Positions 35,130 to 52,677 are shown, counted from the stretch's first letter. The stretch is DNA of 64,000 nucleotides from Segetibacter sp. 3557_3 (GCF_004354985.1 NZ_SMSK01000004.1:1-64000), one strand, 5' to 3'. Notes: generated from the sequence alone by a model not told the origin. Numbers and translations are program-made.

Positions 35130-37604
35130 TCAATCGTCTATTCCTTCCGCAACTACTTGTTTATCAAGCAGCATTCCGAAATTACGCTCCGACTCAATGT
35201 CCCACATAATGAGGCGATCTCGCCTAAGGTATTTAAGTACCGGAAAGTGAACGTCTTTGGCTTCGGGAGTGCTCGCAATAACAAGCAGGCAGTTTGTCCT
35301 TGTCATGATGGTATAGGCAAATTCCATTACTTCGTCTTCGTATTCTATATCGGCTTGCAACGACCATACGATGAACTCCTTCTCGAGGCCTTTTAATCGT
35401 AAAATGGTTGTTGTTTCGCCTATGATACCCAGACCTCTGATTTCTTTGCACAGGTTATCGTCCTTTTCCATGATGGTTATCCTGTTCAAATCAAATACGC
35501 TGTATTGAGCCCGAATCTGGCTGAGCTTTTTAGCCAGTTGAATATTGTCGCCTGCGTAAACAAAAAGAGGCCGCGCTCCGGGTGGAGCACCCTTATACGG
35601 TGTAATTTCCGCGGTTGCTTCTTTGTGTATAGAGGCTTTATTTATTTGACTGGATAATGGATAGATAGCTTCGCAAATTCGGAACGGTAAACGATAAGAT
35701 CCTCTGAGTTGGTGTCTCTTCCAGTTGCCCCGTTCTGCATCTTTAGGGATAAAACCAGATTTACCAATATGAACTGATTGGGCCAAATCACCAGCTAAGA
35801 CTATGTTCTTGGCTTCTGACAGTAGCATGTTCATTATTTCGAAGTCAGTACGTGTGCAGTCTTGAAATTCATCTACAAACAGGTAATCATGTTTTTTAAC
35901 GATTTCACCCTTTTCAAGGAAATTGTATAGCAACTGCCTTCTAGCCGAATAGGATTGCCCCGCTTTTGGATCTCTGGCCATCCATACGGCGTACTTCTTT
36001 AAAGCTTGCCAAACTGCAGGCCTTTGAGTAGAACCTCTTAAACCTTTGCCACGGCCTTCCCGACTTACTGCCAGGTAAGCACCTTCACCTAAATTGATTC
36101 TGCATTGCAATCCATAAATTACTCTGTGGTACTCTTCTAAAAGAAACTCAGGCGTAAGAATATTTTTCATCTTGCTCTCAGGAATGCTCATTTCAATCCT
36201 CACTTCTTTAATAATCTCTTCCAACTTTCGAACGTGAGTAGCCTCCTCAAATGGCAGATATTTAATATTGCCGATATGCTTAGCAAGCATTTCGAAATGG
36301 AGGAACTCAATAAAAAAGTCCTGCTGGTTATTAATAATAATTTTTCCCGTTCCGTCATCCATGTTATTGCTTACCGAGTAGTAAACCTGTTTATAGTTCT
36401 TGTCCTTTTGGTTTAAGAGATCTGAGATCCATGCTCTTAGTTGGCGCAATAGTGATTTGTTGAAGGTCGTAACCAATATCGCGATAGGTCCCGTCCACTT
36501 TCTTTCTTCCAGAAGATTGATGATTTTCTCAGTGATGACCACACTTTTACCACAACCTGCAGGCCCTGTAATCATTGACGGTCGTACTTCAAATAAGGAG
36601 GCTTTTCTCTGATCTTCGTTCAAAGCCACTTGTCTTCTTATCTTCAGCGGAGGGTTGAAGAGGTTGAAATGATCAGGGTATCGCTGAAGATTGAAGCTGA
36701 GTCCTGTTTGAAATTTTTCAAGGCCAATAGTCGTAAAACTTCTATCCTGCCAACTGACCGGGTATAAACTTGCTTTTAACCCATATTTGTTAACGAGCGT
36801 ATTCCTAAAGTCAGAAACAGATTGTAAGTTGCCCTGAAAGAGAAGAGAGGAGGAAGGTCTTGCTAAAATACGATAGCCTACCCCTTTCATATTTGTACTT
36901 AGCTTTTGCATTAATTGCTCCTTGTGCAACTGTGACGATGTGAGTAAAAGAACTTTTGACGGATTAAAGGCAGTAATGAGTTCGCTAAAGTTTGTCTGTA
37001 AATAATCCTCGTTATCTGAAGAGTCAAACAGGTAACTGGCGCAAACCCAAGGATTGATAATGCTCAACTCAGCCTTATTCGACCAGGAGTAAACATGATA
37101 TTCAACTGCCACACCTTTGACCTCGGGGTATTTTTTTATCACTTCGGGCCACAAGTACTTCTGCAAGTAGTTAAGCATAAATGGGCTGAGATCCACATTT
37201 ACGATTCGGAACATTGGTAATATGTAGCCCATCCTCTCGCATGCTGCGGCAGCAATTGCAAAACAAAACTGTATACATCCGGTGCCCGCCCCAAGGTCAA
37301 ATATCGTAATGGGAACATTCGACTGACAAGCCTCGACAACTTTATCAATAAAGTTCGAGAGGAAAATGTTGATCCTTCTTGCCTGGTACCATAACGTGTA
37401 GGCGAATGGTGTTGTGTATCGGTCATAACACAAGTCTTCATTTTTCACTAGGTTGTAAGCTTCCTCTTGTGCACACCTTAAATCGTAAAAAAAATTGGGG
37501 AGACTTTCGTGATCAGCAAGGAATTTCTTTGCTGCTTCAAGGATGATCACTTCAAGGGTTAACTGCTCTTTGCAGAAGAAATCCGTTAGCTGCTGTTTAT
37601 TCAT
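35130..37604 (-). CDS. Methyltransferase-like domain fused to UvrD-type helicase
   Basis: An 824-residue two-domain protein. Residues about 60-230 look like a class I SAM methyltransferase: motif I is FDLGAGTG (102-109), followed by the acidic VNVDLSPFML. There is no NPPY/DPPY, so it is not an obvious DNA N-methylase; it recalls Rsm22-like rRNA-type enzymes. Residues about 325-824 are an SF1 helicase core: Walker A GPAGCGKS (347-354), AILVTTFNKSLLRQL, Walker B VDEFQD (577-582), motif III GDLAQS (605-610), RGSYRLP (motif IV-like), RLKGLEKEFIV and the C-terminal YTIMTRTNCLLVI. The ATG overlaps the TGA of the radical SAM gene by four bases. I know no named system with this fusion; DNA repair or phage defence is inferred from context. 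Confidence 0.75.
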   Translation of the reverse strand: MNKQQLTDFFCKEQLTLEVIILEAAKKFLADHESLPNFFYDLRCAQEEAYNLVKNEDLCYDRYTTPFAYTLWYQARRINIFLSNFIDKVVEACQSNVPITIFDLGAGTGCIQFCFAIAAAACERMGYILPMFRIVNVDLSPFMLNYLQKYLWPEVIKKYPEVKGVAVEYHVYSWSNKAELSIINPWVCASYLFDSSDNEDYLQTNFSELITAFNPSKVLLLTSSQLHKEQLMQKLSTNMKGVGYRILARPSSSLLFQGNLQSVSDFRNTLVNKYGLKASLYPVSWQDRSFTTIGLEKFQTGLSFNLQRYPDHFNLFNPPLKIRRQVALNEDQRKASLFEVRPSMITGPAGCGKSVVITEKIINLLEERKWTGPIAILVTTFNKSLLRQLRAWISDLLNQKDKNYKQVYYSVSNNMDDGTGKIIINNQQDFFIEFLHFEMLAKHIGNIKYLPFEEATHVRKLEEIIKEVRIEMSIPESKMKNILTPEFLLEEYHRVIYGLQCRINLGEGAYLAVSREGRGKGLRGSTQRPAVWQALKKYAVWMARDPKAGQSYSARRQLLYNFLEKGEIVKKHDYLFVDEFQDCTRTDFEIMNMLLSEAKNIVLAGDLAQSVHIGKSGFIPKDAERGNWKRHQLRGSYRLPFRICEAIYPLSSQINKASIHKEATAEITPYKGAPPGARPLFVYAGDNIQLAKKLSQIRAQYSVFDLNRITIMEKDDNLCKEIRGLGIIGETTTILRLKGLEKEFIVWSLQADIEYEDEVMEFAYTIMTRTNCLLVIASTPEAKDVHFPVLKYLRRDRLIMWDIESERNFGMLLDKQVVAEGIDD

Positions 37605-38455
37605 ATTGGCTTAAATCCTTCTTTACCTATTCCAATATCTGGAATATACTGTCGGATAATATTTTCAACCTCCATATACCGTTCTTTGGTCCAATTGAAC
37701 TCATTGAACAACTTCTTTGCTTCATTCCTTGTGCCTGCAGTAAACTTTCCCCTTTCGGCATGGAATGGCTGAATAATGAATTTTGAGATTCCCGTCTCCA
37801 ATAATGATTTAGCAAATACATGAGCATCCTCGATAGGTAATAAAGGCGTCATCGTAATACAGGAGTCAATTCCCGCCCCGTTAACTTCTTTAATTGCATC
37901 CAATCGAGATCTGTTACCCGGACACATTGGCTCAAAAACCTTCCTTACCTTTTCACTATCCGTGGTAATAGTCATGTTGATTTGGACAGCGTTGAATCTT
38001 CTGAACAAATCTATGTCCCGTGTAACTAGCGGACTTCTTGTTTGAACAACAAGTCTTGGCTGATGGTAATTCAACAGTTCTTTTACGATATCTCTTGTTA
38101 GTTCGATCTTTCTTTCAATAGGTTGATAGGGATCGGTAACACTGCTCATATAAACAGTTTTACCTGTGATTGGCTTCGAGCGAAACTTTTTTAACAGCAG
38201 GAGTGCATTTTCTTTCACGTTTACCCAGTAACCCCAGGTATCCTTTTGCTCGTTATCTCTGGCAAAGAAAGCTGCATAACAATAGGTACACCCAAAAGCA
38301 CATCCTGAATACGGATTTAGTGAGTAATCATAATCCGCCATAAACCCCGAGGTAATATTAAGTATGGTCCCGACAGTTTTATACGCAATATTCGCATGTC
38401 CCAGTTTGCTGGGCCGCGAATCCTGCTCACTGCTAAATAAATCTATTTGGCTCAC
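37601..38455 (-). CDS. Radical SAM protein, SplB/Rv2578c-like
   Basis: A 284-residue radical SAM enzyme. The [4Fe-4S]-SAM motif CxxxCxxC is CAFGCTYC (C52, C56, C59), preceded by YDYSLNPYSG and followed by YAAFFARD. The barrel continues with VYMSSVTDPYQPIERK, LVVQTRSPLVTRDIDLF and NMTITTDSEKVRKVFEP. This order is that of the spore photoproduct lyase-like/Rv2578c group, often annotated as DNA repair photolyase, though repair activity is proven for SplB only. It starts with GTG. It is translationally coupled to the methyltransferase-helicase fusion, so a shared nucleic-acid substrate is likely (inference). Confidence 0.85.
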   Translation of the reverse strand: MSQIDLFSSEQDSRPSKLGHANIAYKTVGTILNITSGFMADYDYSLNPYSGCAFGCTYCYAAFFARDNEQKDTWGYWVNVKENALLLLKKFRSKPITGKTVYMSSVTDPYQPIERKIELTRDIVKELLNYHQPRLVVQTRSPLVTRDIDLFRRFNAVQINMTITTDSEKVRKVFEPMCPGNRSRLDAIKEVNGAGIDSCITMTPLLPIEDAHVFAKSLLETGISKFIIQPFHAERGKFTAGTRNEAKKLFNEFNWTKERYMEVENIIRQYIPDIGIGKEGFKPI

Positions 38456-38660
38456 AATAATATTCTTTGAGTAAATCTATGTATCGTAAGGATAGTTCTA
38501 GCAGTAAAAATCAAATTCTGGCACTGCTTGTTATCGAACGACGGGAAAGTTGCTGCACGGTTCATCGTCGTTTAATGCAACACTTGTTTTGGATTTTCAG
38601 TAACAATCTAATCAAATTAAATAGAACATCTGTCAAATCGTACTTTTTCCAGAGATGCAG
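38456..38660. other. Short gap separating two leftward operons
   Basis: About 205 bp without gene or clear hairpin between the thermonuclease stop and the radical SAM start. The two gene groups could still be read from one transcript. Confidence 0.4.
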
Positions 38661-39134
38661 TTACCTCCAGTCCCACGGCGCCACAGCATTCACCTCTGAC
38701 CAAACACCTAATTGTCGTTGTTTAGCTTCTTGTTCCAGTACCGAATAACCTGGATTGTTCGAATACTTTTTATAATGCCAGGCTAAACCGGCCTGCAACA
38801 GGCTGATGTTGATGTTTTCCCCTGAGGTTGCAAGCACGGTTCCCACAAGTCGGTGCCACCTGTCGTATTTATTCAGATGTTTAATCGTCACAACCTGGCC
38901 GAAACATTTTGCCGAAACAAACTGTCTTGCTGCTTTTCCAAACGGCTGGCTTTTTTCAGGACAATCAATATCTGCAAATCGTATAGTCAAGGGCTTATTT
39001 TCAAACAAAATGTCTATTGTATCCCCGTCTTTCACTTTGATCACCTTACCTGTGATCGTAGTGGCAAGCTCATGGTTCTTTGCTTCTTTGCAGCTAAGAA
39101 AGGCAAAAAACCAAATAAGAATTATGTAGCGCAT
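38661..39134 (-). CDS. Lipid-anchored thermonuclease (SNase family)
   Basis: A 157-residue staphylococcal-nuclease-like lipoprotein. The ATG at 39134 (MRYIILIWFFAFLSC) gives a compact lipoprotein signal with the lipidated cysteine at residue 15; an upstream start at 39155 would add seven residues. The SNase fold follows: VIKVKDGDTIDI, the catalytic region IRFADIDCPE (Arg, Asp, Glu of the active site), GKAARQFV, then DRWHRLVGTV with the second catalytic Arg, and YKKYSNNPGYSVLEQEAKQRQLGVWS at the end (two pieces of the usual C-terminal signature). It would cut DNA or RNA outside the cytoplasm in a Ca2+-dependent way. Last gene of a four-gene run of envelope proteins. Confidence 0.88.
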   Translation of the reverse strand: MRYIILIWFFAFLSCKEAKNHELATTITGKVIKVKDGDTIDILFENKPLTIRFADIDCPEKSQPFGKAARQFVSAKCFGQVVTIKHLNKYDRWHRLVGTVLATSGENINISLLQAGLAWHYKKYSNNPGYSVLEQEAKQRQLGVWSEVNAVAPWDWR

Positions 39135-39182
39135 AAAGCAATTTAAACAGAGCATTAAAGGCCGAGTGAATATGGAAGCTTT

Positions 39183-39965
39183 TTACATGAAATTCACTGA
39201 AATTTTATACTCATTAAAGAGCTTTTCCCAATAGTAGGTTAAGTTTGGATCATACTTCGTAGAATTAGCTTCATATGGCAGTACAAAGTGAATGAAAGAG
39301 TCCCTAAGAACTTCAGGCTTAATAGCTAGCTCTCTGTTAATCTTTTGCACATGCTGTATTGCCAACCTTTCCGCTTCCTGCTTGTTTTTTGGGTTCACAA
39401 TGAATTCTTTTGACGATTGCTTCCCGTCTGTGAATAGATAAATTTCTTTTTGCACGTCTTTTCTTTCCATCCTGGATATTACCTCTAACACACCAACTAT
39501 ATCAGTACCTCGCTTGTTTTCGTTATCTAATGGTTTGCTCAAGAATTCGGTACATTCTGAAAAAAACATGAGCTTCTGTTTTCCAATCTCTTTTTTGTAA
39601 GCGTTTCTGGCTGCTTTAATCGCCAAAGGAGGGAGGTTCGGTTTGCAACTAAATTGCGGGACTTCGTAATTAGCGACCGGACTCGCAGCTCTGGTTTTAT
39701 CATGAATGACCAAAAGTTTAAGTGCATCATCGGCACTACTAATTTGATCAATTCCATGTTTAAGAATTGATTGAGACTTCTGTTGAACACCGGGCTGCTG
39801 AAAACTTACGCTCGCGCTTTTATCTACGAATATCAAAATGCTCTGGGGTATGTTTCCGGTGGCTTCCGGATCCTCGTCGGGGATGGTTTTACAGCTTTGA
39901 AAGATCAAATTCAAGGTAAGTAGGCTTAACCAAAGCGTGTAACCAAATCTATTTGTCAAAATCAT
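39183..39965 (-). CDS. von Willebrand factor A-like lipoprotein
   Basis: A 260-residue lipoprotein. Lipobox LIFQSC gives a lipidated cysteine near residue 25. The mature domain begins ILIFVDKSASVSF, in which DKSAS is a MIDAS-type metal site (DxSxS). Later ERKDVQKEIYLFTDGKQSS carries the second vWA landmark (TDG). A conserved threonine cannot be assigned with certainty. The domain probably binds a partner through a metal ion at the membrane surface. ATG at 39965 is used; the frame could start at a TTG nine bases earlier. It overlaps the upstream gene by 17 bp and is 48 bp from the thermonuclease start. Confidence 0.75.
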   Translation of the reverse strand: MILTNRFGYTLWLSLLTLNLIFQSCKTIPDEDPEATGNIPQSILIFVDKSASVSFQQPGVQQKSQSILKHGIDQISSADDALKLLVIHDKTRAASPVANYEVPQFSCKPNLPPLAIKAARNAYKKEIGKQKLMFFSECTEFLSKPLDNENKRGTDIVGVLEVISRMERKDVQKEIYLFTDGKQSSKEFIVNPKNKQEAERLAIQHVQKINRELAIKPEVLRDSFIHFVLPYEANSTKYDPNLTYYWEKLFNEYKISVNFM

Positions 39966-41424
39966 AGTATTCAAAGTTTACATTTCCGTCCTTATTTGCC
40001 TTATTCCTGAAGTTTTGTGATATCATTCTCCGTAGTGCCACAAAGGGTCTCGTTCTTGAATGAATATTGCTCGTGGAGGCCGGTAATGCCGAGGAAGACA
40101 CGGCGTTGCTATACTGAGTGCTAGACATCACACTATCATTCAACCATTCGTCCGTAACTTTCCCGGAAAGCTTCGCTCCCCGATAGTATCCATCCTGATA
40201 AATCGCTTTGCTCTTTTCAATTAGCTTATGCATTTTGCTTCCAACAAACACCTGCAACAGCTCCTTTTTATCTTTAATGAGCTCTTTATGCCCCAATTCT
40301 TCCTGAAGGTCTGAAAGCTCCTCTTCAACCAATTTAATCGCCTGCTCCGCCCTCAGTCGTTTTGACTCAATCGCTACTTTTCTTCGAGCCAAATTGAATA
40401 TTTTGTTATTCCATAGTTTTTGACGAAGGTTATTCCAGGTAATGCGGTAACTTTTATAAATCACCGGAATAGAAATGCCGAGTGAAACCGCTCCGGCAAT
40501 AGCAAAGAGAAATGTAGATGAAATGATGGCGAAAGCCGCCGCTGGTGATGATGATGAGCTGCTTTCAGCATTTGGTTGCGTTGAATTGGAGTTAGCATCA
40601 ATAGATGTGCTTGCATCATTTAAGCCCAGATCCTTGCTTATCATTTCTTCTCTAAAAATGCCAAAGGCAACGAGCATTGCCAGGACAAGTATCGATGACG
40701 TAATGATGAAAATGGCAAATCTTTTCTTTGCTTTACTATTATGATACGGCTTCTCGATCAGTCGGTCGTAAGCAGGCTTGAGCACTACCGAAAGACCTGC
40801 AATCGCAATGGCGAACATGTAAGCGATGTAAGTTATATGAACAGTGCCTTGGCCATCTGTGCTGGTACCGATCTGCAAATTTGTTGCAACTATATTAAGG
40901 GCGATGCCATAATCTGCCCCGATAAATAATATTGCGAAGACAAAAAAGATAATTGCAGCCAAAAGCGAATAATCAGTTTTTACGTTTTCCTTCAATTCGT
41001 TGATCGTTTCTTTCGCCCGGCTGAGCTTATCCTGCCAGAACTTAATCTTATTCTCAATATCGTTCGACTCAAGAATCAATATCCCATGTTCTGCTCTTTG
41101 CTCTAATTCTTTCGAAACAAGGTCAAGCCGTTTTGCTCGTGCTTTAGTGTATGTATCTGATAAGCTTGCTATTTCGTCCTTTGTTTCATTAATTCTGTGG
41201 TCCTTGTTTATCTCCTCATAATAATAGGATATAAACCTTTCGAACATCTCAGGAGGAATTGACATAAGACCATTCGTTATCCCATGTTCGTATAATTTAA
41301 ATGTTTGAAGGCTTTTGTCTTGCTCAACGGGTTCGTCTGCTGTGGATTTTACTTCTGTAATGATCGATGGTATATTGGCTGCATCGGCCTCAGTAGGTTC
41401 AGGTCTGCTTTTTTGTTCTTCCAC
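39949..41424 (-). CDS. Coiled-coil membrane protein, four-helix
   Basis: A 491-residue protein starting at GTG, 5 bp after the preceding gene. An acidic N-terminus is followed by a long coiled coil (about 75-150, EEINKDHRINETKDEIASL, LSRAKETINELKENV), four hydrophobic segments (LLAAIIFFVFAILFIGADYG; YIAYMFAIAIAGLSVVL; FAIFIITSSILVLAMLVAFG; AFAIISSTFLFAIAGAVSLG), a Ser/Asn-rich loop between the third and fourth, and a second coiled coil (about 345-400, RLRAEQAIKLVEEELSDLQE). The last 90 residues are polar. No family recognised. Like the next gene it pairs coiled coils with a central membrane block, so the two may form a complex. Confidence 0.75.
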   Translation of the reverse strand: MEEQKSRPEPTEADAANIPSIITEVKSTADEPVEQDKSLQTFKLYEHGITNGLMSIPPEMFERFISYYYEEINKDHRINETKDEIASLSDTYTKARAKRLDLVSKELEQRAEHGILILESNDIENKIKFWQDKLSRAKETINELKENVKTDYSLLAAIIFFVFAILFIGADYGIALNIVATNLQIGTSTDGQGTVHITYIAYMFAIAIAGLSVVLKPAYDRLIEKPYHNSKAKKRFAIFIITSSILVLAMLVAFGIFREEMISKDLGLNDASTSIDANSNSTQPNAESSSSSSPAAAFAIISSTFLFAIAGAVSLGISIPVIYKSYRITWNNLRQKLWNNKIFNLARRKVAIESKRLRAEQAIKLVEEELSDLQEELGHKELIKDKKELLQVFVGSKMHKLIEKSKAIYQDGYYRGAKLSGKVTDEWLNDSVMSSTQYSNAVSSSALPASTSNIHSRTRPFVALRRMISQNFRNKANKDGNVNFEYYDFDK

Positions 41425-41429
41425 CAGAG

Positions 41430-42476
41430 TTATATATTTGGGTTAGCGTAATAATTCTTTGCAAGATTGTACTCACTCAAAAAGAGGTTTATTTTCAGTT
41501 CGCACTGTTGGTCATAACTTGTGCACTGAGCTTGAAGCTCCAATACTTCAGTTTGCAGCTTTTCGATATTTTGTAGGGTTTGAAGGAGATTTTCCTGTGT
41601 GTCTTTAGCATCCTTCTCGATGTCTGCCTTCTGTTTGCGTACTTGCCTGGCCGCTTTTAAATTAGTAGTTATCAGCCCAAAATCTTTTACAATCTTGTGA
41701 AACACCCCTAATAACAGCTTGCCGCAAAAAAAGAATACGAAAAGAAGAAAGAGCCCAAAAGCTATTGTAAAACCAATCTTAAGTGTTTCCTCAAACACTA
41801 TGTATGATACAAGGATGGTTGTCGCTAAAGGTGAACCTATTTCTAAAAGGGCGATCTTCAACTTGCCAAAGAAAGTGTTGGTTTTCTGCTCCTCCGGATC
41901 TAGCCATGATGATAAAGGAGCAATTAGAGAAAATAACCCAAAAAGGAAAATACCGATCGATGCTGCAATTCCAAACCGAGGTGAGATAAAGTAGTGGATC
42001 AGATAGAAATTGCCAACAGCGGCTGCTGAGATAAAAATCAAACCTAAAAGGTTTCGAAGAAATTGTGTATCTGGTCTAAGGACTTCCGCTTCATTTTTTA
42101 AGTTAGTCAAGTTTTCCAGAAACCGGCTTTTTGTGTCGAGCTGTTTTCTTTCTTCTAAAAGGTTTTCTAACGAGCTGCTGGCAGCTAATCTTTTCGCATC
42201 AGCGCTTGCTTTTAGGTCAGCATAAAAGTTCTTTATTGCCAGCAGTTTTTCTTCTGTTGAGGCACCGCTTAATCCAAAAAGTACTCCTTCATCCCTAAGC
42301 AACCCATCGTTGGTAATCCAAATATTTTTTGCGTCGAGGTAAATCGTATTTGGGTTATCCGCTTTCGACTTAGACTCTTGCAATTTATTGCTGGCGTCGG
42401 CAAGGGGTTCAATGAACTTTTTGCCTCCAAAAAGTCGTGCAAGTGGTCTTGTCTGCTTTAATTCTTGTAAAGTCAT
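41430..42476 (-). CDS. Coiled-coil membrane protein, first gene of the operon
   Basis: A 348-residue protein with a coiled coil (about 100-135, SLENLLEERKQLDTKSRFLE), a membrane block of about four helices (about 140-265: LLGLIFISAAAVGNFYLIHY; IAASIGIFLFGLFSLIAPLS; PLATTILVSYIVFEET; IGFTIAFGLFLLFVFFFCGK) and a long C-terminal coiled coil (about 275-335, ADIEKDAKDTQENLLQTLQN). The N-terminus (TRPLARLFGGKKFIEPLADA; NIWITNDGLLRDEGVLFGLS) is distinctive but unmatched to any family I know. The architecture mirrors the next gene. It diverges from hsdM across a 423-bp spacer that would hold both promoters. Confidence 0.75.
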   Translation of the reverse strand: MTLQELKQTRPLARLFGGKKFIEPLADASNKLQESKSKADNPNTIYLDAKNIWITNDGLLRDEGVLFGLSGASTEEKLLAIKNFYADLKASADAKRLAASSSLENLLEERKQLDTKSRFLENLTNLKNEAEVLRPDTQFLRNLLGLIFISAAAVGNFYLIHYFISPRFGIAASIGIFLFGLFSLIAPLSSWLDPEEQKTNTFFGKLKIALLEIGSPLATTILVSYIVFEETLKIGFTIAFGLFLLFVFFFCGKLLLGVFHKIVKDFGLITTNLKAARQVRKQKADIEKDAKDTQENLLQTLQNIEKLQTEVLELQAQCTSYDQQCELKINLFLSEYNLAKNYYANPNI

Positions 42477-42899
42477 GTCTTTTTGGTTAGCAAAATATTA
42501 AATCTCCTGATACTTTGATGTTAGCGGTAAGCTTGGCAGGAATTGACCCGTAGCAATTTTACTTAATTTATATAACAAAACCTTTGTCTGTTGAAATTTT
42601 TAGTATCATACCATAAAGTCGGCATTTTACATGCCCGCAATTCTCTTCTAAGCATAGTCTAAAGCACTAAGTTGTACTATTCCCTTGTCAATTTTTCCGA
42701 TGTTCACATCGAACAATTGGGAAAGAGAAGCAATTATCTCTGAAAACGCGTAAATAATCGGTAAACCGCCAATGTAGATATGCTTCAAAACATTGCTTAG
42801 ACCCTTCTTCAACTGATAAATTCTTTTTTGGCAGCCATTTTTGACCATCTCCAACTTTTCCCTACATTGCTTTTTCTAATCTAATTGCTACAAAACACT
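42477..42899. other. Divergent promoter region between leftward operon and type I locus
   Basis: 423 bp that must hold promoters for both directions. AT-rich stretches such as TTATATAACAAAACC (about 42570) are present, but no clear -7/-33 pair was found. A 68-codon leftward frame (42648-42854) is of doubtful reality. Confidence 0.4.
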
Positions 42900-44480
42900 A
42901 TGAGTGATTTCAAGAACCTGGAGAAAACCCTCTGGGCTGCGGCTGACAAATTGCGCAGTAATATGGACGCAGCCGAATACAAACACGTCGTCCTGGGGCT
43001 GATTTTTCTAAAATACATTTCCGATGCTTTCAACGGTCGTTACGACCAGCTGAAGCTCGAACTAGAAGACCCCAACAGCGATTGGTACGTCGAAGAAGAC
43101 CAGGAACGTTACCAAACCCTCAACGACAAAGACGAATACACCAGCAACAACATTTTTTATGTTCCGGAAAAGGCCCGTTGGGCATACCTGCAATCGAGGG
43201 CCAAACTGCCGGAGATCGGCAAGTTGGTCGACGATGCCATGGACGAAATTGAAAAGGTAAACGCACCGCTCAAAGGTGTCTTACCTAAGATCTATGCCGA
43301 TCCTGATCTGAACAAACAGCGGCTTGGCGAGCTGATCGACCTGATTGGTACCATCGGCTTCAATCAACCTGGCCACAAGTCAAAGGATCTGCTGGGCCGG
43401 GTGTATGAGTATTTCCTCGGACAGTTTGCCGATGCTGAAGGCAAAAGCGGCGGGCAGTTCTATACGCCTGGTTCTATTGTAAAGCTGCTGGTAGAGATGC
43501 TGGAACCTTACAAGGGGCGCGTATACGATGGCTGCTGCGGCAGCGGTGGTATGTTTGTACAAAGCGAAAAGTTCATCGAAGAACATGGTGGCCGCCTCGG
43601 CGATATCTCTGTATTCGGACAGGAGAGCAATCCTACGACATTGCGCCTCGCCAAAATGAACCTTGCTATTCGCGGTATTGACACCAAAATCGAGCTTGGC
43701 GACACCTTTTTGCACGACCGTCACAAAGACCTGAAGGCCGACTTTATCATGGCTAATCCCCCTTTTAATATCAGCGACTGGAGCGGTGAACAACTACGGG
43801 AAGATATCCGGTGGAAATACGGGGTACCACCGGTAGGCAATGCCAACTATGCCTGGCTGCAGCATTTTATACACAAGCTTAGCCCCAACGGTACCGCCGG
43901 CATTGTACTCGCCAATGGCAGTATGAACAGCAACACCGGTGGCGAAGGTGACATACGAAAGGCCATGATTGAGGCCGGCCTTATTGATTGTATGGTGGCC
44001 TTGCCTGCTCAGTTGTTCTATAATACCATGATACCTGCCTGCCTGTGGTTTTTGGCACGCAACAAAACCAATGGTAAGTTCCGAAACCGCAGTAGCGAAG
44101 TTTTGTTCATCGATGCGCGTAAGCTTGGTTTTATGACCAACCGCCGGAACAAAGAACTGGCAGATGCCGATATAAAACAGATAACCGAAGCTTACCACTC
44201 CTGGCGCAACAAACCTCTCAGCCCGACGAAGGAGGGATCTCAAACCTACCACGACATCCCCGGCTTTTGCAAGGCAGCTACCCTCGACGAAGTACGAAAC
44301 AATAATTACGTGCTCATGCCCGGGCGTTATGTGGGCACAGAAGCTGAAGAAGATGATGGCATTTTGTTTAGTGACAAAATAGCTGCACTAACAAGTAAAC
44401 TGGCCGAACAACTGAGTAAAGGCCGTTCGTTGGAAACAGAAATACGAGAGAACCTGAAATCAATTGGCTACGAGTTTTAG
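42900..44480 (+). CDS. hsdM: Type I restriction-modification methyltransferase subunit
   Basis: A 526-residue N6-adenine DNA methylase. The HsdM N-terminal helical domain ([35 protein letters not shown]) leads into the catalytic domain: [20 protein letters not shown] motif [15 protein letters not shown], and catalytic NPPF in [14 protein letters not shown]-terminal parts ([40 protein letters not shown]) are complete. It methylates adenines in the target set by HsdS, protecting self DNA. The ATG at 42900 (MSDFKNLEK) fits the family better than the TTG 15 bp upstream. Base composition is richer in G+C than hsdS, sir2 and herA downstream. Confidence 0.97.
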
Positions 44481-44625
44481 ATGTCATCAGTTTTTTTATG
44501 CGCCCGGCGGAAATATGGCTATTTAGCAGCCGTTGCGTCGCACTCTTGTACGGTATATAATAGGGCAGCATTAGCAAACAGCATATGCCGGCATTTATGT
44601 ATTTCGAGTGTAAAAAGTTTAATTA
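44481..44625 (-). repeat. GTGCGACGCAACG-family repeat between hsdM and hsdS
   Basis: Contains TTGCGTCGCACTCTTGTACG (44537-44556), the inverse of the block at 11160-11185, preceded by a TGCGCCCGGCGGAA stretch as at 30005-30020. Type I M and S genes usually overlap or touch, so this insertion separates them and may be one edge of the replaced segment. Confidence 0.6.
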
Positions 44626-44631
44626 TTGCTT

Positions 44632-45810
44632 ATGATTTTTTCAGGATGGAGACAGGTGAAATTAGGGGAAATTTCCTCTAAAATCACTAAAGGTACAACT
44701 CCGACTACATTAGGAGAAAGGTTTGTTGATGAAGGAGTTAACTTTATAAAAGCTGAATCTGTAACGTTTGACGGAACGATTGACAAATCAAAATTCGTTT
44801 ATATAACACCTGACACTCATGAAAAACTTAAGAGATCCCAGCTTGAGGAAGGTGATATATTATTTTCAATGGCCGGAATGGTACTTGGCAAAACTGCCGT
44901 GGTTACGAGTGATTTACTGCCAGCAAATACAAATCAGGCTTTGGCGCTAATTAGGTTAAAAAAAGCCGAGGCATTTCCAAGGTTTATTGATTATTTCATG
45001 AGGCAAAGCTCTTTTTTTCATTACGTGAACAGCAGCACGGGCCAGTCAGCACAACCAAATATAAATTTGCAGGAAATTGGAGACTTAACGATTTCACTTC
45101 CTTCCTTGGCAGTGCAGAAGCGAATTGCCTCCATTCTTTCTTCCTTAGATAATAAAATAGAATTGAACCGGCAAACCAACCAAACATTGGAAGCCATTGC
45201 ACAAGCACTTTTCAAAGAATGGTTTGTCGACTTTAATTTTCCCGGCGCCCCAGGTGAGTTCCAGGATAGTGAATTGGGGAGGATACCGAAGGAGTGGAAG
45301 GTAGGCAAATTGGGGGACTTATTAAATTTTAGAAATGGTAAACCGTCGCCTGAAAGATCTGACAACTATCAGTTCCCGGTCTATGGCGCGAATGGTATAA
45401 TAGGTTTTGCTGAAACCTCTAATGCAGAAGAAAAGAGTATAATAATCGGAAGAGTTGGAAGCTTTTGTGGGGCAGTGTACTTTAATCTTGAAAATTCATA
45501 CGTGACGGATAATGCCATCATCGGAGAACCAAACAGGGTCAAAACCTCAATGTTTTGTTTTCTTTTAGCTAAAAGTTTGAATTTGAACAATTATAGAGTT
45601 GGATCAGGTCAACCTTTATTAAATCAAGCAATATTGTCAGGCATAAAGATTGTCATTCCTTCAGAGAGCATTTTGAAAGTGTTTGAAAAAGTTACACTTT
45701 CTATATTTCAATTTAGCTTCCAGAAGCAGAAGGAAATCAATGTGCTGATTGAACTTCGGGATACTTTGTTACCTAAGTTGATGAAGGGGGAAATGAACAT
45801 TCAAAAATAG
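44632..45810 (+). CDS. hsdS: Type I restriction-modification specificity subunit
   Basis: A 392-residue specificity subunit with two target-recognition domains. Half 1 starts MIFSGWRQVKLGEISSKITKGTTP and closes with the conserved helix SLPSLAVQKRIASILSSLDNKIE followed by FKEWFVDFNFPG (a central hinge motif). Half 2 starts LGRIPKEWKVGKLGDLL and ends FQKQKEINVLIELRDTLLPK LMKGE. The layout is that of a complete HsdS which, with two HsdM, sets the two-part DNA target. Sequence is visibly AT-richer than hsdM. ATG at 44632 chosen; the TTG at 44626 is an alternative. The next gene starts 5 bp after its stop. Confidence 0.93.
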   Translation: MIFSGWRQVKLGEISSKITKGTTPTTLGERFVDEGVNFIKAESVTFDGTIDKSKFVYITPDTHEKLKRSQLEEGDILFSMAGMVLGKTAVVTSDLLPANTNQALALIRLKKAEAFPRFIDYFMRQSSFFHYVNSSTGQSAQPNINLQEIGDLTISLPSLAVQKRIASILSSLDNKIELNRQTNQTLEAIAQALFKEWFVDFNFPGAPGEFQDSELGRIPKEWKVGKLGDLLNFRNGKPSPERSDNYQFPVYGANGIIGFAETSNAEEKSIIIGRVGSFCGAVYFNLENSYVTDNAIIGEPNRVKTSMFCFLLAKSLNLNNYRVGSGQPLLNQAILSGIKIVIPSESILKVFEKVTLSIFQFSFQKQKEINVLIELRDTLLPKLMKGEMNIQK

Positions 45811-45815
45811 ATAGA

Positions 45816-47129
45816 ATGGACGTAGAATTTTGGCAAAGAGTGCATAAGGTAAAAACAAATACTGAATGCGAATCTTTTAATGATGCACCGCAACCATCTG
45901 ATTGGCGGCCGAAGATTGAACCCTGGCTTAGTGCAATTTTCCAAAGTGAGCATTTTTCAGTATTGATTGGATCTGGAATGACAACAGGATTATGCTACAT
46001 GGCAGGTGTTGAAGCACAAGCAATGGGAAGACTTGAACTAGATGGAGTCTATTCCCAAATAATTGCAGAGGCTGCAAACGAGTCAGCATCAGCGATGGAA
46101 AGAGGGGAAGCAAACTTGGAGGACGATATCCGAGTTGCTTTAGAGCTGCTGCGAGGTTATCAAATACAAAAACACCACGACAGGGAACAGTTGAATGCCG
46201 AATTGGATCATAAATTAAATTCTTTCATCAAGAATATTCTTGCTACAGAACGTTCCTTTAAGGAGAAGCTTGGGTTAGCTACCGGAGAAGAACAGGCGAA
46301 AGCTTTAGTTGCATTTAAATACTTAAACTCATTTCTACTAAGTTTTTCAAGTAGAGCAGCCTCCCGGGAAAGATTGAACATCTTTACAACCAATTATGAC
46401 AGATTTTTAGAATTTGGATGTGATGAAGCTGGAATAATTTTAATGGATCGTTTTAAGGGAAAACTGCAACCAATATTTAGAAACACCAAATTGGAGCTGG
46501 ATTACCATTATAACCCGCCTGGAATTCGAGGCGAACCCAGGTATGTTGAAGGTGTAGCAAGGATTACAAAGCTACACGGATCCGTTGATTGGAAATTCGA
46601 AGATTATGGAAAGATTATACGGATGCTTTTACCATTCGGCGCGGCTGATACTCATCCTGAAATACCCCGAGAGGCGACTAAGCAAGCTGTTATTTATCCC
46701 AATTCAGCAAAAGATATAGAAACTGCATATTATCCCTATTCTGAACTTTTTAGAGATTTTTCTTCTTCTATTTGCCGACCGAATTCTGCCATTGTTACCT
46801 ACGGCTATGGTTTCGGAGACTCTCACATTAATAGGATTATTGCTGATATGTTCACAATCCCTTCAACACATCTTGTGATTATAGCTTATGGTGATCCTGG
46901 GGATAAAATACAAAGGTTTTTAGCAGACAAGAATGAAGCACAATACACTTTGTTAATGGGACCACATTTTGGAGAACTAAAATCCCTCGTTGATTTCTAT
47001 TTACCTAAATCTGCCATTGATAGGTTAACAATAAAAATGCGTGACCTCGTGAGCCGACGTGATAAACCTGGGGCAGTAAATTCCAGTTCGAACAACGAAA
47101 CAACAAACAGTGATGAACCAGCTTCATGA
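45816..47129 (+). CDS. SIR2-family NADase of a SIR2-HerA defence module
   Basis: A 437-residue SIR2-like protein without signal peptide. NAD-binding landmarks are VLIGSGMTTG (about 49-58), IFTTNYDRFLE (TTNYD 191-195) and ITKLHGSVDW (LHGSVDW 253-259), followed by YGYGFGDSHINRII. In defence systems this group hydrolyses NAD+ on phage infection and stops the infected cell. It overlaps the herA gene by 17 bases, as expected of a two-gene SIR2-HerA (Nezha-type) module in which HerA hexamers bind and gate SIR2. It is AT-rich, begins 5 bp after hsdS, and so looks like a cassette inserted inside a type I locus. Confidence 0.88.
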   Translation: MDVEFWQRVHKVKTNTECESFNDAPQPSDWRPKIEPWLSAIFQSEHFSVLIGSGMTTGLCYMAGVEAQAMGRLELDGVYSQIIAEAANESASAMERGEANLEDDIRVALELLRGYQIQKHHDREQLNAELDHKLNSFIKNILATERSFKEKLGLATGEEQAKALVAFKYLNSFLLSFSSRAASRERLNIFTTNYDRFLEFGCDEAGIILMDRFKGKLQPIFRNTKLELDYHYNPPGIRGEPRYVEGVARITKLHGSVDWKFEDYGKIIRMLLPFGAADTHPEIPREATKQAVIYPNSAKDIETAYYPYSELFRDFSSSICRPNSAIVTYGYGFGDSHINRIIADMFTIPSTHLVIIAYGDPGDKIQRFLADKNEAQYTLLMGPHFGELKSLVDFYLPKSAIDRLTIKMRDLVSRRDKPGAVNSSSNNETTNSDEPAS

Positions 47130-49260
47130 TTTTGACCAGCTTAGAAACCTAACTATTGGAATGGTGGACTATGTATCACCAGTAGAAATTAGAGTATTAT
47201 TAGAGCCAGATGCACCACAAAATACCGCATTGAATAATGGAGTGCCTTCTCTTTTCCCTCGAATCAATGGTTATGTCCTAATACCAAATGAAATCGGAGC
47301 GGTAGTCGGAGTGATAAGTTGGATTGGAACAGAACACTCTAGTTATCCTAAAAGAAAGGGGTTTAAGGATTACGACTTAATAGATTTACCGTTTCCAACT
47401 AGGAAAATGATGATTAATCCAGTTGGCACACTCAAGACTATAGTGTCTGACAGCGAAAGTTTTCATCGACTTGAAAGAGGGGTCTATTCATTTCCATCGG
47501 TTGGAGATACCGTTATACTTCCAAAGCATGAACAACTTAGAGCAATAGTAGAAAATAGTGACAAAGGAGCTTTCGTAAGAATCGGAACAGCACCAATCGC
47601 TGGAGATGCAACTGTGACCATAAATCCTGATAGACTATTCGGTAGACACGTAGCCGTGCTAGGCAATACGGGCAGTGGTAAATCTTGTTCGGCTGCTGGC
47701 CTAATCAGATGGTCATTAGAAGAGGCAGAAAAACATAAAGCAGGAATAGGAAACCTAAATGGTCGATTTGTAATACTTGATCCTAATGGTGAATACTGTG
47801 ATTGTTTCAGCGATTTAAACATTACAGTTAAGCGATTTAAGATTGAAATTTCTGAAAGGGAAGCTGGAATTTTTAAAAGCTTAAAAGTCCCGGGGTGGTT
47901 ATGGAATAGCTTTGAATGGAGTTCCTTTTCCCAAGCATCTGCTAAGACACAAAAGCCAATTTTAAGACGAGCATTGAGGGAACTTAGAAATGGCTCAAAG
48001 ACAGATACAGATACTACAGCCCTACAGTACAATCGATATGTAAAAAGTTGTGTGATTTCTTTAAAAAGTGATTTAAGAACAGGGTCTCGGGCCTTTTCTG
48101 AATGGCCCGGTAAAAACGATTTTGGAAAAAAGCTTCGGGCATATAAAGATAGTTTATTAGCATTCATCGGTAGAGTAGATGAACAACTTAGAAATCAAAT
48201 AGAACAAGCAGCTTCGAATTTAGATGCAATCGCTCAATCAAGATATGCACCCTTCAACAATGGTCAAATTAATTATGAACCTTTTACTGTTGCACAAGTT
48301 TATTCAACAATTGAAACGGTCGAAACTTTACTTAGCGATACTACTCCTAATATAGAAGCGACTGATATTGACGAAGATTCTCCGGTTCCATTTGACCCTG
48401 AATTACTTCCGCAACATGTTGAAACATTGTCTGAGGAACAAGGAGTGCTTCAACATCTCGATTTTTTGATACTTCGAATCAAGACCCTTTTAGCTGATAA
48501 AAGGATGAAGAAAGTTGTAGGTAGGGATGATGATGTCACCCTTGAAAATTGGTTAAATGATTATCTGACGGGTATCACGATTATTGATTTATCACTTATT
48601 CCATCAGATGTAGTTCATTTGATTGTTTCAGTTATTTCTCGCATAATATTCGAAGCTGTACAGAGATATAGGCGACGAAACGAGAAGGTTCTTCCAACTG
48701 TACTTATGCTAGAGGAAGCTCATAACTTTATCAAGAAGACATTTTCAGCTCCTGAAGAACTGTCAACATCGGAAGTGTGCAGTCAAACGTTCGAAAAGAT
48801 AGCAAAGGAAGGAAGGAAGTTTGGCTTAAGTCTACTTATCTCCTCTCAGCGACCCTCTGAATTATCTGATACAGTTCTCTCTCAGTGTAACACCTTTTTA
48901 CTTCACAGGATAGTTAATGATCGAGACCAAGATTTGGTGAAGCGACTAGTGCCGGACAATATAGGGGGATTATTGAAAGAGTTACCTGTACTACCAACAC
49001 AAAAAGCAATACTGTTAGGGTGGGCGTCACCTCTTCCTATGTTAGTTCAACTTCGCTCACTCACTAAAAGTCAAAGGCCGAAGTCTCAAGATCCTGATTT
49101 TTGGGATGTATGGACTGGTAAAGAAGAAAGGACAGCAAACTGGACAGAAATCGTTACCGATTGGACAGGAGAAGCGCAAAGTGCAGATAATGTTCAGACA
49201 GAAACAGCTACATCAAGTGAAACAAGTTCTTCTACTGATGAAGATAATCTACCCTTTTAA
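47113..49260 (+). CDS. HerA-type ATPase/helicase
   Basis: A 715-residue HerA/FtsK-superfamily ATPase. The N-terminal HAS-barrel-like region (GMVDYVSPVEIRVLLEPDAP, YVLIPNEIGAVVGVISWI) precedes Walker A GNTGSGKS (184-191). A long helical insert follows (about 250-480), then Walker B with tandem glutamates LMLEEAHN (about 531-538), ASGFSL-equivalent GLSLLISSQRPSELSD, and NTFLLHRIVNDRDQD with the arginine finger region. HerA hexamers normally translocate DNA; in SIR2-HerA modules they assemble with SIR2 into a large complex. An acidic Ser/Thr-rich tail ends the protein. ATG at 47113 is preferred over GTG at 47110. Confidence 0.9.
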   Translation: MNQLHDFDQLRNLTIGMVDYVSPVEIRVLLEPDAPQNTALNNGVPSLFPRINGYVLIPNEIGAVVGVISWIGTEHSSYPKRKGFKDYDLIDLPFPTRKMMINPVGTLKTIVSDSESFHRLERGVYSFPSVGDTVILPKHEQLRAIVENSDKGAFVRIGTAPIAGDATVTINPDRLFGRHVAVLGNTGSGKSCSAAGLIRWSLEEAEKHKAGIGNLNGRFVILDPNGEYCDCFSDLNITVKRFKIEISEREAGIFKSLKVPGWLWNSFEWSSFSQASAKTQKPILRRALRELRNGSKTDTDTTALQYNRYVKSCVISLKSDLRTGSRAFSEWPGKNDFGKKLRAYKDSLLAFIGRVDEQLRNQIEQAASNLDAIAQSRYAPFNNGQINYEPFTVAQVYSTIETVETLLSDTTPNIEATDIDEDSPVPFDPELLPQHVETLSEEQGVLQHLDFLILRIKTLLADKRMKKVVGRDDDVTLENWLNDYLTGITIIDLSLIPSDVVHLIVSVISRIIFEAVQRYRRRNEKVLPTVLMLEEAHNFIKKTFSAPEELSTSEVCSQTFEKIAKEGRKFGLSLLISSQRPSELSDTVLSQCNTFLLHRIVNDRDQDLVKRLVPDNIGGLLKELPVLPTQKAILLGWASPLPMLVQLRSLTKSQRPKSQDPDFWDVWTGKEERTANWTEIVTDWTGEAQSADNVQTETATSSETSSSTDEDNLPF

Positions 49261-49277
49261 TTCCTATTTCTACAACA

Positions 49278-49440
49278 ATGAGCCTCCTTACCGAGGATGA
49301 ACTTGAACAAATCGCGTAAGGGATTGCAGCGGATACCCCACAGCCGACGAAGGAGGCGAGGAGTAGCAGCGAAAAGCCCGACCCCTTTCCCGGCATTAAG
49401 CCGGGATGGGGACACGCCCTAAAAAGTTCCTTACTGCCTT
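49278..49440 (+). pseudogene. Vestigial hsdR start plus intergenic repeat
   Basis: The 13-codon frame 49278-49319 reads MSLLTEDELEQIA and stops. The true HsdR, 207 bp further, starts MSNFLTEDEIEQIA. Eleven of thirteen residues match while the DNA is clearly diverged, so this is the beginning of a different hsdR allele. It is followed by a GC-rich block (GGATTGCAGCGGATACCCCA ... AGCCCGACCCC) that resembles a widely scattered Bacteroidota intergenic repeat (from memory) and contains the hairpin TCCCGGC/GCCGGGA. Confidence 0.75.
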
Positions 49441-49484
49441 GACATAAAACTAGCAATAAAAAACACCTATCGAAACTTGCTGCT

Positions 49485-52400
49485 ATGAGTAATTTTCTTA
49501 CCGAAGATGAAATAGAACAAATCGCCCTCGACCTTTTAAAAGATGATCTGGGATACGACACCGTCTTCGGTCCTGACCTGGTGGACTCGGATACTCCTGA
49601 ACGCACACACGCCGAGGTGGTACTATCTTCCCGTCTGCAAGCCGCGATTGACCGCATCAACCCACATATACCTGCTGAGGCCAGGGAAGAGGCATTTAAA
49701 AAAGTACAGCGTGCCGCATCTATCGACGCACTTGCAAGCAATGAGGCGTTTCATGTAATGCTTACCGATGGCATTGATGTAAAATTTCGTGTCGCTACCG
49801 GTACCAGGAGCGATAAGGTTTGGCTGATTGATTACAACAATCCACACCAAAATAACTTTTTGGCAGTTAACCAGTTTACAGTTATCGAAAACCACGTTAA
49901 TAAAAGAGCGGACCTTGTTTTGTTTATCAATGGTTTGCCCCTGATAGTAATAGAGCTCAAAAACGCTACCGACGAAAATGCTGACGTATACGCTGCGTAC
50001 CAGCAGCTCCAAACGTATAAAAGCACCATTCCATTACTTTTTCAATACAATTGTTTTATGATCGCCAGCGATGGCTGGTTTGCAAAAGCAGGTACCATCA
50101 GCAGCGACTTTAGCCGCTTTATGGAGTGGAAGACCTCAGACGGAGAAAACATTGTAGACACCAATACGGAGGCGGAGATGGAACCGATGCTGAAAGGCAT
50201 GTTGCGAAAAGAAAGCCTTTTAGACATCATCCGTTACTTCATTGGTTTTGAAAAGAGTAAGGAAAAGACGATAAAGAAGATTGCAGCCTACCACCAGTAT
50301 TACGCGGTTAATAAAGCGATTGCTACAACAGTCAGAGCTTCAGGCAACCTGGGCGATAAAAGAGCAGGTGTTATCTGGCACACCCAGGGTTCGGGTAAGA
50401 GTTTAAGCATGGTGTTCTACACCGGTAAAATGGTCGTGGAGCCTGCAATGAATAATCCTACGATTGTCGTACTAACCGACCGCAACGACCTCGACGATCA
50501 GCTCTTCGGCACCTTTTGCGACTGCCAGCAGTTATTAAGACAGGAGCCAAAGCAGGCAACCAATCGCAAAAGCCTTCGCGACTTGTTAGCTGTTGCTTCC
50601 GGCGGTATTGTGTTTACCACCATTCAGAAGTTTCTGCCCGAGGAAAAGGGCGACAACTTTCCCATGCTCACCGACCGCAGAAACGTGGTTGTGGTAGCAG
50701 ATGAAGCACACCGCAGCCAGTACGACTTTATTGATGGCTTTGCACGTAATATGCGCGATGCTTTGCCGAATGCATCTTTCATTGGCTTTACTGGTACCCC
50801 AATTGAAAAGCAGGATGCCAGCACCCAGGCCGTATTTGGCGATTACATAGACGTGTATGATATAGAGCAGGCGGTAAAAGACGGAGCCACCGTGCGCATT
50901 TACTACGAAAGCCGCCTCGCGAAGGTAAAGTTGAGCGAAGAAGAGAAGAAGATCATGGATCAGAAGGTGGAGGAGATAACCGAAGACGAAGAACTGACCG
51001 ACAAACAAAAACGATTTGCCAAATGGGCCAGCAAGGAAGCGGTGGTAGGTAGTACTACCCGTTTGCAGCAGGTAGCCAAAGACATGGTTCAGCACTTCGA
51101 CCAGCGGCTCAACGCAAGTAAAGGAAAAGCCATGTTTGTGGCGATGAGTCGCAGGATAGCAGTGGAACTGCACGATGAGATCGTTCATCTCAGACCAGAC
51201 TGGTACAGCAAAGACGATGATAAAGGCGCAATTAAGGTGATCATGACCGGCAGCAGCAGTGACGGCCCAGAATGGGCTGAACACATCCGAAACAAAAAGA
51301 AACGAACCGACATTGGCAACCGGCTAAAAGATCCGGAAGATGAACTGAAGATTGTGATTGTACGTGATATGTGGTTGACAGGCTTCGATGCGCCTGTGCT
51401 GCACACGTTATACGTAGACAAGCCCATGAGCGGGCATAACCTGATGCAGGCTATTGCAAGGATCAACCGGGTATTTGGTGACAAGCAGGGTGGGCTGGTG
51501 GTTGATTACATCGGCATTGCACAAGACCTGAAGAAGGCATTGGCTACCTATACCGAAAGTAAAGGAAAAGGAAAGCTTACGCATGATATTGATGAAGCTG
51601 CAGCGAAGATGTTGGAAATATACGAGTTGGTCGCCGACTTGTTTGCCGGGTTCGACTACAAAGCATACTTCAACCAGACACCCAGGCAAAAAATGCAGTT
51701 TATTCTCGAGGCTGCGAACTTCATCTTAGGTCTCACCGAAGTGGATGAGTCGGGCAATGTTATCAGAAATGGAAAACAAAAATACAAAGATGCAGTTACA
51801 CGTCTGTCGCAAGCTTTCGCACTGTCGGTCACCCATCCTGATGCGCTGCTAATAAGAGATGACCTTGCGTTCTTCCAGGCCATCAAAGCACGTATAGCAA
51901 AGTTCGACGAAAGCAAACGGAAGCGGAGTAACCAGGAGATAGAAACTGCATTACGGCAGATTGTGAATGACGCGATTATTTCGGAAGATGTGGTGGATGT
52001 ATATGATGCTGCCGGCATCAAAAAGCCCGATATTTCTATTCTCGATGACAAGTTTCTAGCAAGCGTGAGAAACCTGCCCCAAAAGAACCTGGCCTTAGAA
52101 TTACTCAAGCGTTTGCTCAACGATGAAGTAAAGAACAATTCGAAAAGCAATGTTTCTCAAGGTAAAAAGTTCTCTAAGTTACTTGAAGAAGCAGTTAAGC
52201 GTTACCAAAGCGGTCTTATTGAAGCTGCCCAAGTAATCGACGAGATGATAAGACTTGCTAAGGAAATGCGGGAGGCCGCAGAGCGTGGCGAAAAGCTAGA
52301 CTTAAGGCAGGATGAACTAGCGTTCTATGATGCGCTTGCTGAGAATCCTACAGCTGAAACAATATTAGGGGATAAGACGTTACGCGCAATCGCACATGAA

Positions 52401-52610
52401 TTGGTCGAGAGCGTCAGGCGAAATACCTCCATCGACTGGCAGCTAAAAGAAAGTGTTCAGGCAAAAATCCGCTCACTCATAAAACGTATACTCCGTAAAT
52501 ACAAATATCCACCAGACAATCCCGCTACAGGCGAGTACACTGTTTCAGTAAACAAGGTACTGACCCAGGCAGAGATGTTTGCGGATTATTGGAGTGGAGA
52601 GGCGGCGTGA
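49485..52610 (+). CDS. hsdR: Type I restriction endonuclease subunit R
   Basis: A 1041-residue motor and nuclease subunit. The N-terminal PD-(D/E)XK nuclease has RADLVLFINGLPLIVIELKN with the Asp and ExK residues. The SF2 motor follows: Walker A TQGSGKSLSMVFY, ADEAHRSQYDF (DEAH), GFTGTPIE, VAMSRRIAV, MTGSSSDGPEW and MQAIARINRVFGDK. The C-terminal helical region that contacts HsdM is complete. It translocates DNA and cuts far from unmethylated targets. With hsdM it shares higher G+C than the hsdS-sir2-herA block between them. The ATG (MSNFLTEDEIE) is directly after the vestigial copy of the same start. Confidence 0.96.
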   Translation: MSNFLTEDEIEQIALDLLKDDLGYDTVFGPDLVDSDTPERTHAEVVLSSRLQAAIDRINPHIPAEAREEAFKKVQRAASIDALASNEAFHVMLTDGIDVKFRVATGTRSDKVWLIDYNNPHQNNFLAVNQFTVIENHVNKRADLVLFINGLPLIVIELKNATDENADVYAAYQQLQTYKSTIPLLFQYNCFMIASDGWFAKAGTISSDFSRFMEWKTSDGENIVDTNTEAEMEPMLKGMLRKESLLDIIRYFIGFEKSKEKTIKKIAAYHQYYAVNKAIATTVRASGNLGDKRAGVIWHTQGSGKSLSMVFYTGKMVVEPAMNNPTIVVLTDRNDLDDQLFGTFCDCQQLLRQEPKQATNRKSLRDLLAVASGGIVFTTIQKFLPEEKGDNFPMLTDRRNVVVVADEAHRSQYDFIDGFARNMRDALPNASFIGFTGTPIEKQDASTQAVFGDYIDVYDIEQAVKDGATVRIYYESRLAKVKLSEEEKKIMDQKVEEITEDEELTDKQKRFAKWASKEAVVGSTTRLQQVAKDMVQHFDQRLNASKGKAMFVAMSRRIAVELHDEIVHLRPDWYSKDDDKGAIKVIMTGSSSDGPEWAEHIRNKKKRTDIGNRLKDPEDELKIVIVRDMWLTGFDAPVLHTLYVDKPMSGHNLMQAIARINRVFGDKQGGLVVDYIGIAQDLKKALATYTESKGKGKLTHDIDEAAAKMLEIYELVADLFAGFDYKAYFNQTPRQKMQFILEAANFILGLTEVDESGNVIRNGKQKYKDAVTRLSQAFALSVTHPDALLIRDDLAFFQAIKARIAKFDESKRKRSNQEIETALRQIVNDAIISEDVVDVYDAAGIKKPDISILDDKFLASVRNLPQKNLALELLKRLLNDEVKNNSKSNVSQGKKFSKLLEEAVKRYQSGLIEAAQVIDEMIRLAKEMREAAERGEKLDLRQDELAFYDALAENPTAETILGDKTLRAIAHELVESVRRNTSIDWQLKESVQAKIRSLIKRILRKYKYPPDNPATGEYTVSVNKVLTQAEMFADYWSGEAA

Positions 52611-52677
52611 GTTGGCTCCAAAACGTTTTTCTTTCACCAAACAACAATTCAACACATTATTCTCCAAAGAACACCAG

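Follow-up and report, generated by a model that had tools for sequence, protein, structure and literature searches.

We identified an old, previously undescribed family of bacterial envelope machines that combines coiled-coil membrane proteins with a periplasmic vWA protein. The conserved unit is a membrane protein (TM2) together with a periplasmic vWA protein that has an intact MIDAS, usually accompanied by a second membrane protein (TM1). The four-gene set of the locus studied here, which adds a thermonuclease (SNase) lipoprotein, is not the conserved unit, because most relatives lack the vWA gene, TM1 or the SNase. The module is new as a set of families, not as a proven function: three families, none of them covered by a curated model, make up a conserved envelope module that on more than one occasion has entered type III CRISPR loci and on more than one has been joined to a secreted nuclease. 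Our leading but tentative reading is a trans-envelope scaffold with interchangeable outputs, the output here being a periplasmic SNase directed against incoming DNA; the defence step is its weakest part, and virus defence is no more than a plausible role. If the module is immune in function, it would let bacteria attack DNA while it is in the periplasm or relay a CRISPR alarm from the cytoplasm to the outside, and we know of no established mechanism of either kind; if it is not, what remains is a widely inherited envelope machine, so far uncharacterised, for which catalytic residues and partners can be named.

The window, a 64-kb stretch of DNA with positions counted from its first nucleotide, lies within a 436-kb contig of a 6.75-Mb genome that shares its genus with Segetibacter aerophilus (G216). 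Leftward on the minus strand, the genes encoding TM1 (41430–42476; 348 amino acids), TM2 (39949–41424; 491 amino acids), the vWA lipoprotein (39183–39974, with a start at TTG 39974 or ATG 39965) and the SNase lipoprotein (38661–39155, with a start at ATG 39155 or 39134) follow one another in that order. The stop codon of TM1 is 5 bp from the GTG start of TM2, the TM2 and vWA genes overlap, and the vWA stop lies 27 bp (39155) or 48 bp (39134) from the ATG of the SNase. An earlier note had described four leftward genes that overlap or are spaced by at most 48 bp and that start opposite hsdM; all four open reading frames are present on the minus strand as described, and a gap of 408 bp separates the start of TM1 from hsdM, which runs the other way. 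The range that it assigned to the cluster (37601–42476) covers these genes but also takes in a radical-SAM gene (37601–38455; related to PA0069/mobile-pair families) that belongs to a separate two-gene unit (35130–38455, minus strand) outside the module, in which it overlaps by 4 bp with a gene for a UvrD-like helicase that has a methyltransferase-like N-terminal region (35130–37604). Neighbourhood comparison showed that the helicase and radical-SAM unit does not accompany the module in the loci of relatives, and it is possibly an island gene pair of its own. Scans for Rfam families, tRNAs, promoters and terminators added nothing to the picture of the cluster. The adjoining defence island is real (42885–56310, plus strand, outside the module), and consists of hsdM (42885–44480), hsdS (44626–45810), SIR2 (45816–47129; PADLOC match, 8.6e-172), HerA (47110–49260; 1.1e-273), hsdR (49485–52610), a McrB-like gene (52579–55023) and a gene named McrC-like from position and length only, without a PADLOC match (55024–56310). 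The SIR2 and HerA pair (45816–49260, plus strand) sits between hsdS and hsdR.

Both membrane proteins have the same predicted architecture of coiled coil, four transmembrane helices and coiled coil, as the earlier note had observed, and their profiles align with each other (hhalign probability 95.8, E = 8e-9, a score that the coiled coils may inflate). Because the profiles match, TM1 is probably a remote paralogue of TM2, with layouts that are alike through common descent. TM1 keeps the N-terminal motif WITNDGLLRDEGVLFGL in relatives; TM2 has a conserved N-terminal HGxxxG, the loop motif LKPAYDRLIExPY and the C-terminal motifs YxxGYxxG and RPFxxLR. Loop charges of TM2 (positive-inside rule) predict an N-in/C-in topology in 12 of 12 aligned sequences, with the LKPAYDRLIExPY loop and the coiled coils in the cytoplasm. 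TM1, TM2 and the vWA protein matched no family in Pfam, NCBIfam, PADLOC or the PDB, and Foldseek comparison of TM1 and TM2 with the PDB, based on structure models of only moderate confidence, returned generic long coiled coils alone. Neither membrane protein fits a housekeeping secretion or transport family in the Pfam, NCBIfam and PDB comparisons, as the earlier proposal required. A P0001 match in G019 (L007/L010) proved to lie on a BatABD-like operon gene, and we discarded it as a coincidental resemblance between coiled coils.

The vWA lipoprotein has the lipobox (Cys28) and the complete MIDAS (D51-x-S53-x-S55, T157 and D183) expected from its first description; the MIDAS is conserved or T/S-substituted in most relatives, which also share a C-terminal YYW motif. 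The match to Pfam VWA_2 is below the cut-off (E = 0.079), and the vWA profile found nothing significant in the PDB. The SNase is the only one of the four proteins recognised by Pfam and NCBIfam; it is a genuine, lipobox-bearing member of PF00565 (E = 3e-23; 82.8 bits against a cut-off of 21), confirming the lipid-anchored thermonuclease, and also matches C3a212 (SNc+LTD) of PADLOC. It aligns over 121 residues with the Staphylococcus aureus thermonuclease, with which it has family and catalytic residues in common: D45, R59, D64, E67 and R102 match D21, R35, D40, E43 and R87, so that the catalytic set is intact. Unlike the staphylococcal enzyme, it is lipid-anchored and encoded in a membrane operon. 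Surface-exported lipoproteins of Bacteroidota are known to carry an acidic signal after the lipobox Cys. At this position the SNase reads CKEAKNHE, which lacks such a signal, and for this reason it more likely faces the periplasm than the surface, contrary to the surface nuclease first envisaged.

In the scaffold reading, TM2 and its paralogue TM1 would form an inner-membrane assembly with long coiled coils in the cytoplasm, coupled to the periplasmic vWA lipoprotein, which would bind a partner through its MIDAS metal site. The module would then be a general trans-envelope sensing or scaffold unit of Bacteroidota, to which interchangeable outputs have been added. Since the output in this genus would be the periplasm-facing SNase, the local version would most likely cut DNA that crosses the envelope (phage injection or plasmid transfer), and it would fall to the vWA and TM proteins to position or license the SNase. 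The relatives in Rhodothermus, in G541 and in a distant branch found in Runella would serve type III CRISPR immunity instead. We infer that the proteins form a complex in the host and that DNA is cleaved in the periplasm; service to CRISPR immunity and any phage phenotype would be predictions of the same kind.

Several known systems resemble parts of this design. Zorya (ZorA/ZorB/ZorD) forms an inner-membrane assembly of MotA/MotB-type proteins with long cytoplasmic helices and has a nuclease output. The module resembles it in having a predicted membrane assembly with long cytoplasmic helices and a putative nuclease output, and a distant branch (below) adds OmpA-like lipoproteins; in contrast to Zorya, the cluster has neither MotA/MotB homology nor ZorC or ZorD, and no Zorya model matched TM1, TM2, the vWA protein or the SNase in the PADLOC scan. 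We know of no Zorya system that includes a vWA protein or an SNase. SNIPE, a single protein with TM, DUF4041 and GIY-YIG regions, is a membrane-held nuclease that cuts phage DNA during injection on the cytoplasmic side (PMC13190303). The likeness would be a functional parallel between membrane-held nucleases that have no family in common and are not homologous: here, a separate SNase lipoprotein, predicted to be periplasmic, stands beside two coiled-coil TM proteins and a vWA protein, and Pfam and NCBIfam detected no DUF4041 or GIY-YIG in the cluster. The vWA-MoxR-VMAP ternary system and other vWA systems occur near CRISPR or conflict loci (PMC7159879; PMC10910872), and the latter paper notes that some of those near CRISPR loci have transmembrane partners. 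As far as the portions of these papers available to us describe them, they share with the module the vWA domain and the association with conflict or CRISPR genes, whereas the module has an exported vWA protein and no adjacent MoxR AAA+ ATPase or VMAP (none among the window neighbours listed and profiled). The type III CRISPR membrane effectors Cam1, Cam2, Csx23 and CorA are TM proteins with cytoplasmic nucleotide-sensing domains (PMC11229360), and resemble the module in being TM proteins of type III loci, as in the Rhodothermus, G541 and Runella relatives; the module differs in having no match to a nucleotide-sensing domain and in placing a periplasmic vWA protein on its output side. The earlier note knew of no system with this set. 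TM1, TM2 and the vWA protein correspond to no curated family, to no system in PADLOC and to no solved structure, and we found no description of the gene set in the literature; the supplementary tables of PMC10910872, a source available to us in part, may list relatives, and the CRISPR-linked vWA clusters of that paper include UAS-7, 87, 91, 100, 129, 139, 149 and 155.

Single-sequence searches recovered few relatives, and profiles were needed to reach them. TM2 profiles matched 9 of 395 genomes in a sample of the phylum, 7 of 245 in the Rhodothermus class, 35 of 213 in a Cytophagales-like order and 5 of 249 in the order of the window's own genome; a few of the matches in these two orders were weak and were left uncounted, and the weak matches L111–L113 were not counted. 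TM1-TM2-vWA arrangements occur in this genus, Haliscomenobacteraceae metagenome-assembled genomes, Rhodothermus, G338, G541 and G786; TM2 and vWA genes without a recognised TM1 occur in families f97, f82 and part of f56, and TM1-TM2 without a vWA gene in family f30. The adjacency of TM2 and vWA genes thus recurs in many families of Bacteroidota; the SNase is absent from most modules. The TM2 tree tracks host families and therefore indicates mostly vertical descent; no relative was found in viral contigs and phage records, and a plasmid search found relatives only in Rhodothermus and Runella. In Haliscomenobacteraceae (L009 3070–12210, L014 and L015), a 608-amino-acid membrane protein precedes the triad and a very large repetitive protein (1300–1464 amino acids) follows it, both without a Pfam match in L009. 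In many f30 genomes, including those of genus g369 (L087, L089, L091 and L092), TM1 is preceded by a gene family of about 190–330 amino acids that has no Pfam match and often follows molybdopterin oxidoreductase and haem-protein-like genes.

Vertical inheritance is also what would be expected of a general envelope housekeeping module for cell-wall, stress or mechanical sensing, whose proximity to restriction–modification (RM) and CRISPR genes would reflect gene-rich mobile islands. Indeed, TM1-TM2 without a vWA gene often lies in conserved chromosomal synteny in f30 genomes, TM2-vWA lies among housekeeping genes in f97 and f82, and in the distant branch the companions include OmpA-like lipoproteins, joined in G054 by a K+-channel-like protein. 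Three type III CRISPR placements, two type I RM placements and recurrent independent acquisition of an SNase are hard to explain by hitchhiking alone, and we consider a housekeeping role somewhat unlikely.

The distant branch (branch B, as opposed to branch A, which contains the window's module) was first reached through an SNase locus in G054 (L163 3152–8702), which encodes a two-pore K+-channel-like protein, a coiled-coil TM protein, a vWA-like protein, an OmpA-like lipoprotein and, at its end, an SNase lipoprotein. Branch B relatives in G102 and G774 have no adjacent SNase, and OmpA-like lipoproteins accompany the relatives of this branch. On plasmid pSP2_2 of Runella sp. SP2 (L170 6603–8717), the TM and vWA parts form a single 704-amino-acid fusion protein, in support of their pairing; its gene lies in a type III-B locus, with csx2/WYL on one side and primase-polymerase-cas2-cas1 on the other. 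The homology of branches A and B rests on hhalign probabilities of 74 for the vWA proteins (E = 2.8e-5, 237 columns) and 82 for the TM proteins (E = 9.8e-6), together with a shared C-terminal W motif in the vWA protein and a shared N-terminal glycine motif in the TM protein.

Defence settings recur in the wider family. The S. aerophilus operon has mobilization genes on one side and, on the other, a type I hsdM that falls in a different PADLOC subfamily, so type I RM genes adjoin the module in two species of the genus and are unrelated to each other. Type III CRISPR-Cas genes lie around or beside it in three lineages: in Rhodothermus marinus, on plasmid pRMAR01 and in a chromosomal copy in G251, the triad is inside a type III-A locus with csx2 after the vWA gene; in G541, cas10 and csm3-like genes come after the triad; and the Runella fusion lies in the III-B locus above. 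Defence contexts comprise only these four lineages. Among 122 neighbours at about 25 representative remaining loci, a handful matched PADLOC at 1e-15, mainly generic helicases, and most relatives accordingly lie outside defence settings. Placement beside defence genes thus recurs without being the rule, and homologues that are mostly outside defence islands and track host phylogeny speak largely against the dedicated defence system of the earlier note. From its interpretation we retain the TM-vWA pairing, the link to the SNase and the recurring defence contexts, and abandon the four-gene unit and the surface nuclease.

A stronger version of the defence idea would make the whole module immune: the cytoplasmic coiled coils of TM1 and TM2 would take up a signal of infection, which in some hosts would come from type III CRISPR, and relay it to the periplasmic MIDAS vWA protein, which would release or position an effector such as the SNase against DNA crossing the envelope. 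We regard this as unlikely. Quite improbable is a type III CRISPR ancillary module that passes an intracellular alarm across the envelope (for example, a cyclic nucleotide by way of Csx2 or another CARF protein) and that is here detached from CRISPR, with another trigger. The position of csx2 directly after the vWA gene in Rhodothermus and close to the fused gene in Runella, the triad upstream of cas10 in G541 and cytoplasmic coiled coils that could receive a cytoplasmic input would fit such a role. Yet the window holds no type III locus, unlike those three relatives, and most relatives are not near one; cas10 had no match in the window's genome or in G216, G102, G054 and G338; and TM1, TM2 and the vWA protein had no Pfam or NCBIfam match to CARF, SAVED or another nucleotide-sensing domain, beyond a weak PADLOC match of TM1 to CARF_TM (E = 0.0018) that covers the TM region only.

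The scaffold reading draws its local output from the SNase, whose linkage to the module is real and far above chance, yet optional. SNase genes are scarce: 11 were found in the 43 TM2-bearing genomes, and 7 of the 11 adjoin the module: those of G000, G216 and five g369 species, each the sole SNase found in its genome. By our own estimate, if a genome of about 6.5 Mb has a lone SNase, the chance that it falls no more than 5 kb from the module is about 0.15%. The gene is downstream of the vWA gene in G000, upstream of TM1 in G216 and upstream of TM1 with one gene between in g369. A single clade of all linked copies (g1 and g369) was rejected in the SNase tree (p-AU = 0.003), and with it a single origin, whereas one clade of the two Segetibacter copies was not rejected (p-AU = 0.226); there were therefore at least two independent acquisitions of an SNase beside the module. 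Secreted SNases also occur at many module-free loci of the order (41 of 150 genomes), as would suit a scavenging or biofilm enzyme that breaks down DNA from the surroundings as a nutrient source or to turn over the matrix, and that has no more than a promoter in common with the membrane module; that the sole SNase of both Segetibacter and all five g369 genomes is at the module makes this very doubtful. That the genes serve a mobilizable element in entry exclusion or transfer, as the MobC-like and relaxase-like genes just before the S. aerophilus operon suggest, is the least credible explanation, as no mobilization genes were seen beside the module in the window or in most relatives. Another possible envelope-nuclease operon was observed in G142 (L151 184–8612), in which an SNase lipoprotein ends a co-directional run that includes a trypsin-like protease as well as membrane proteins and secreted proteins that match no family.
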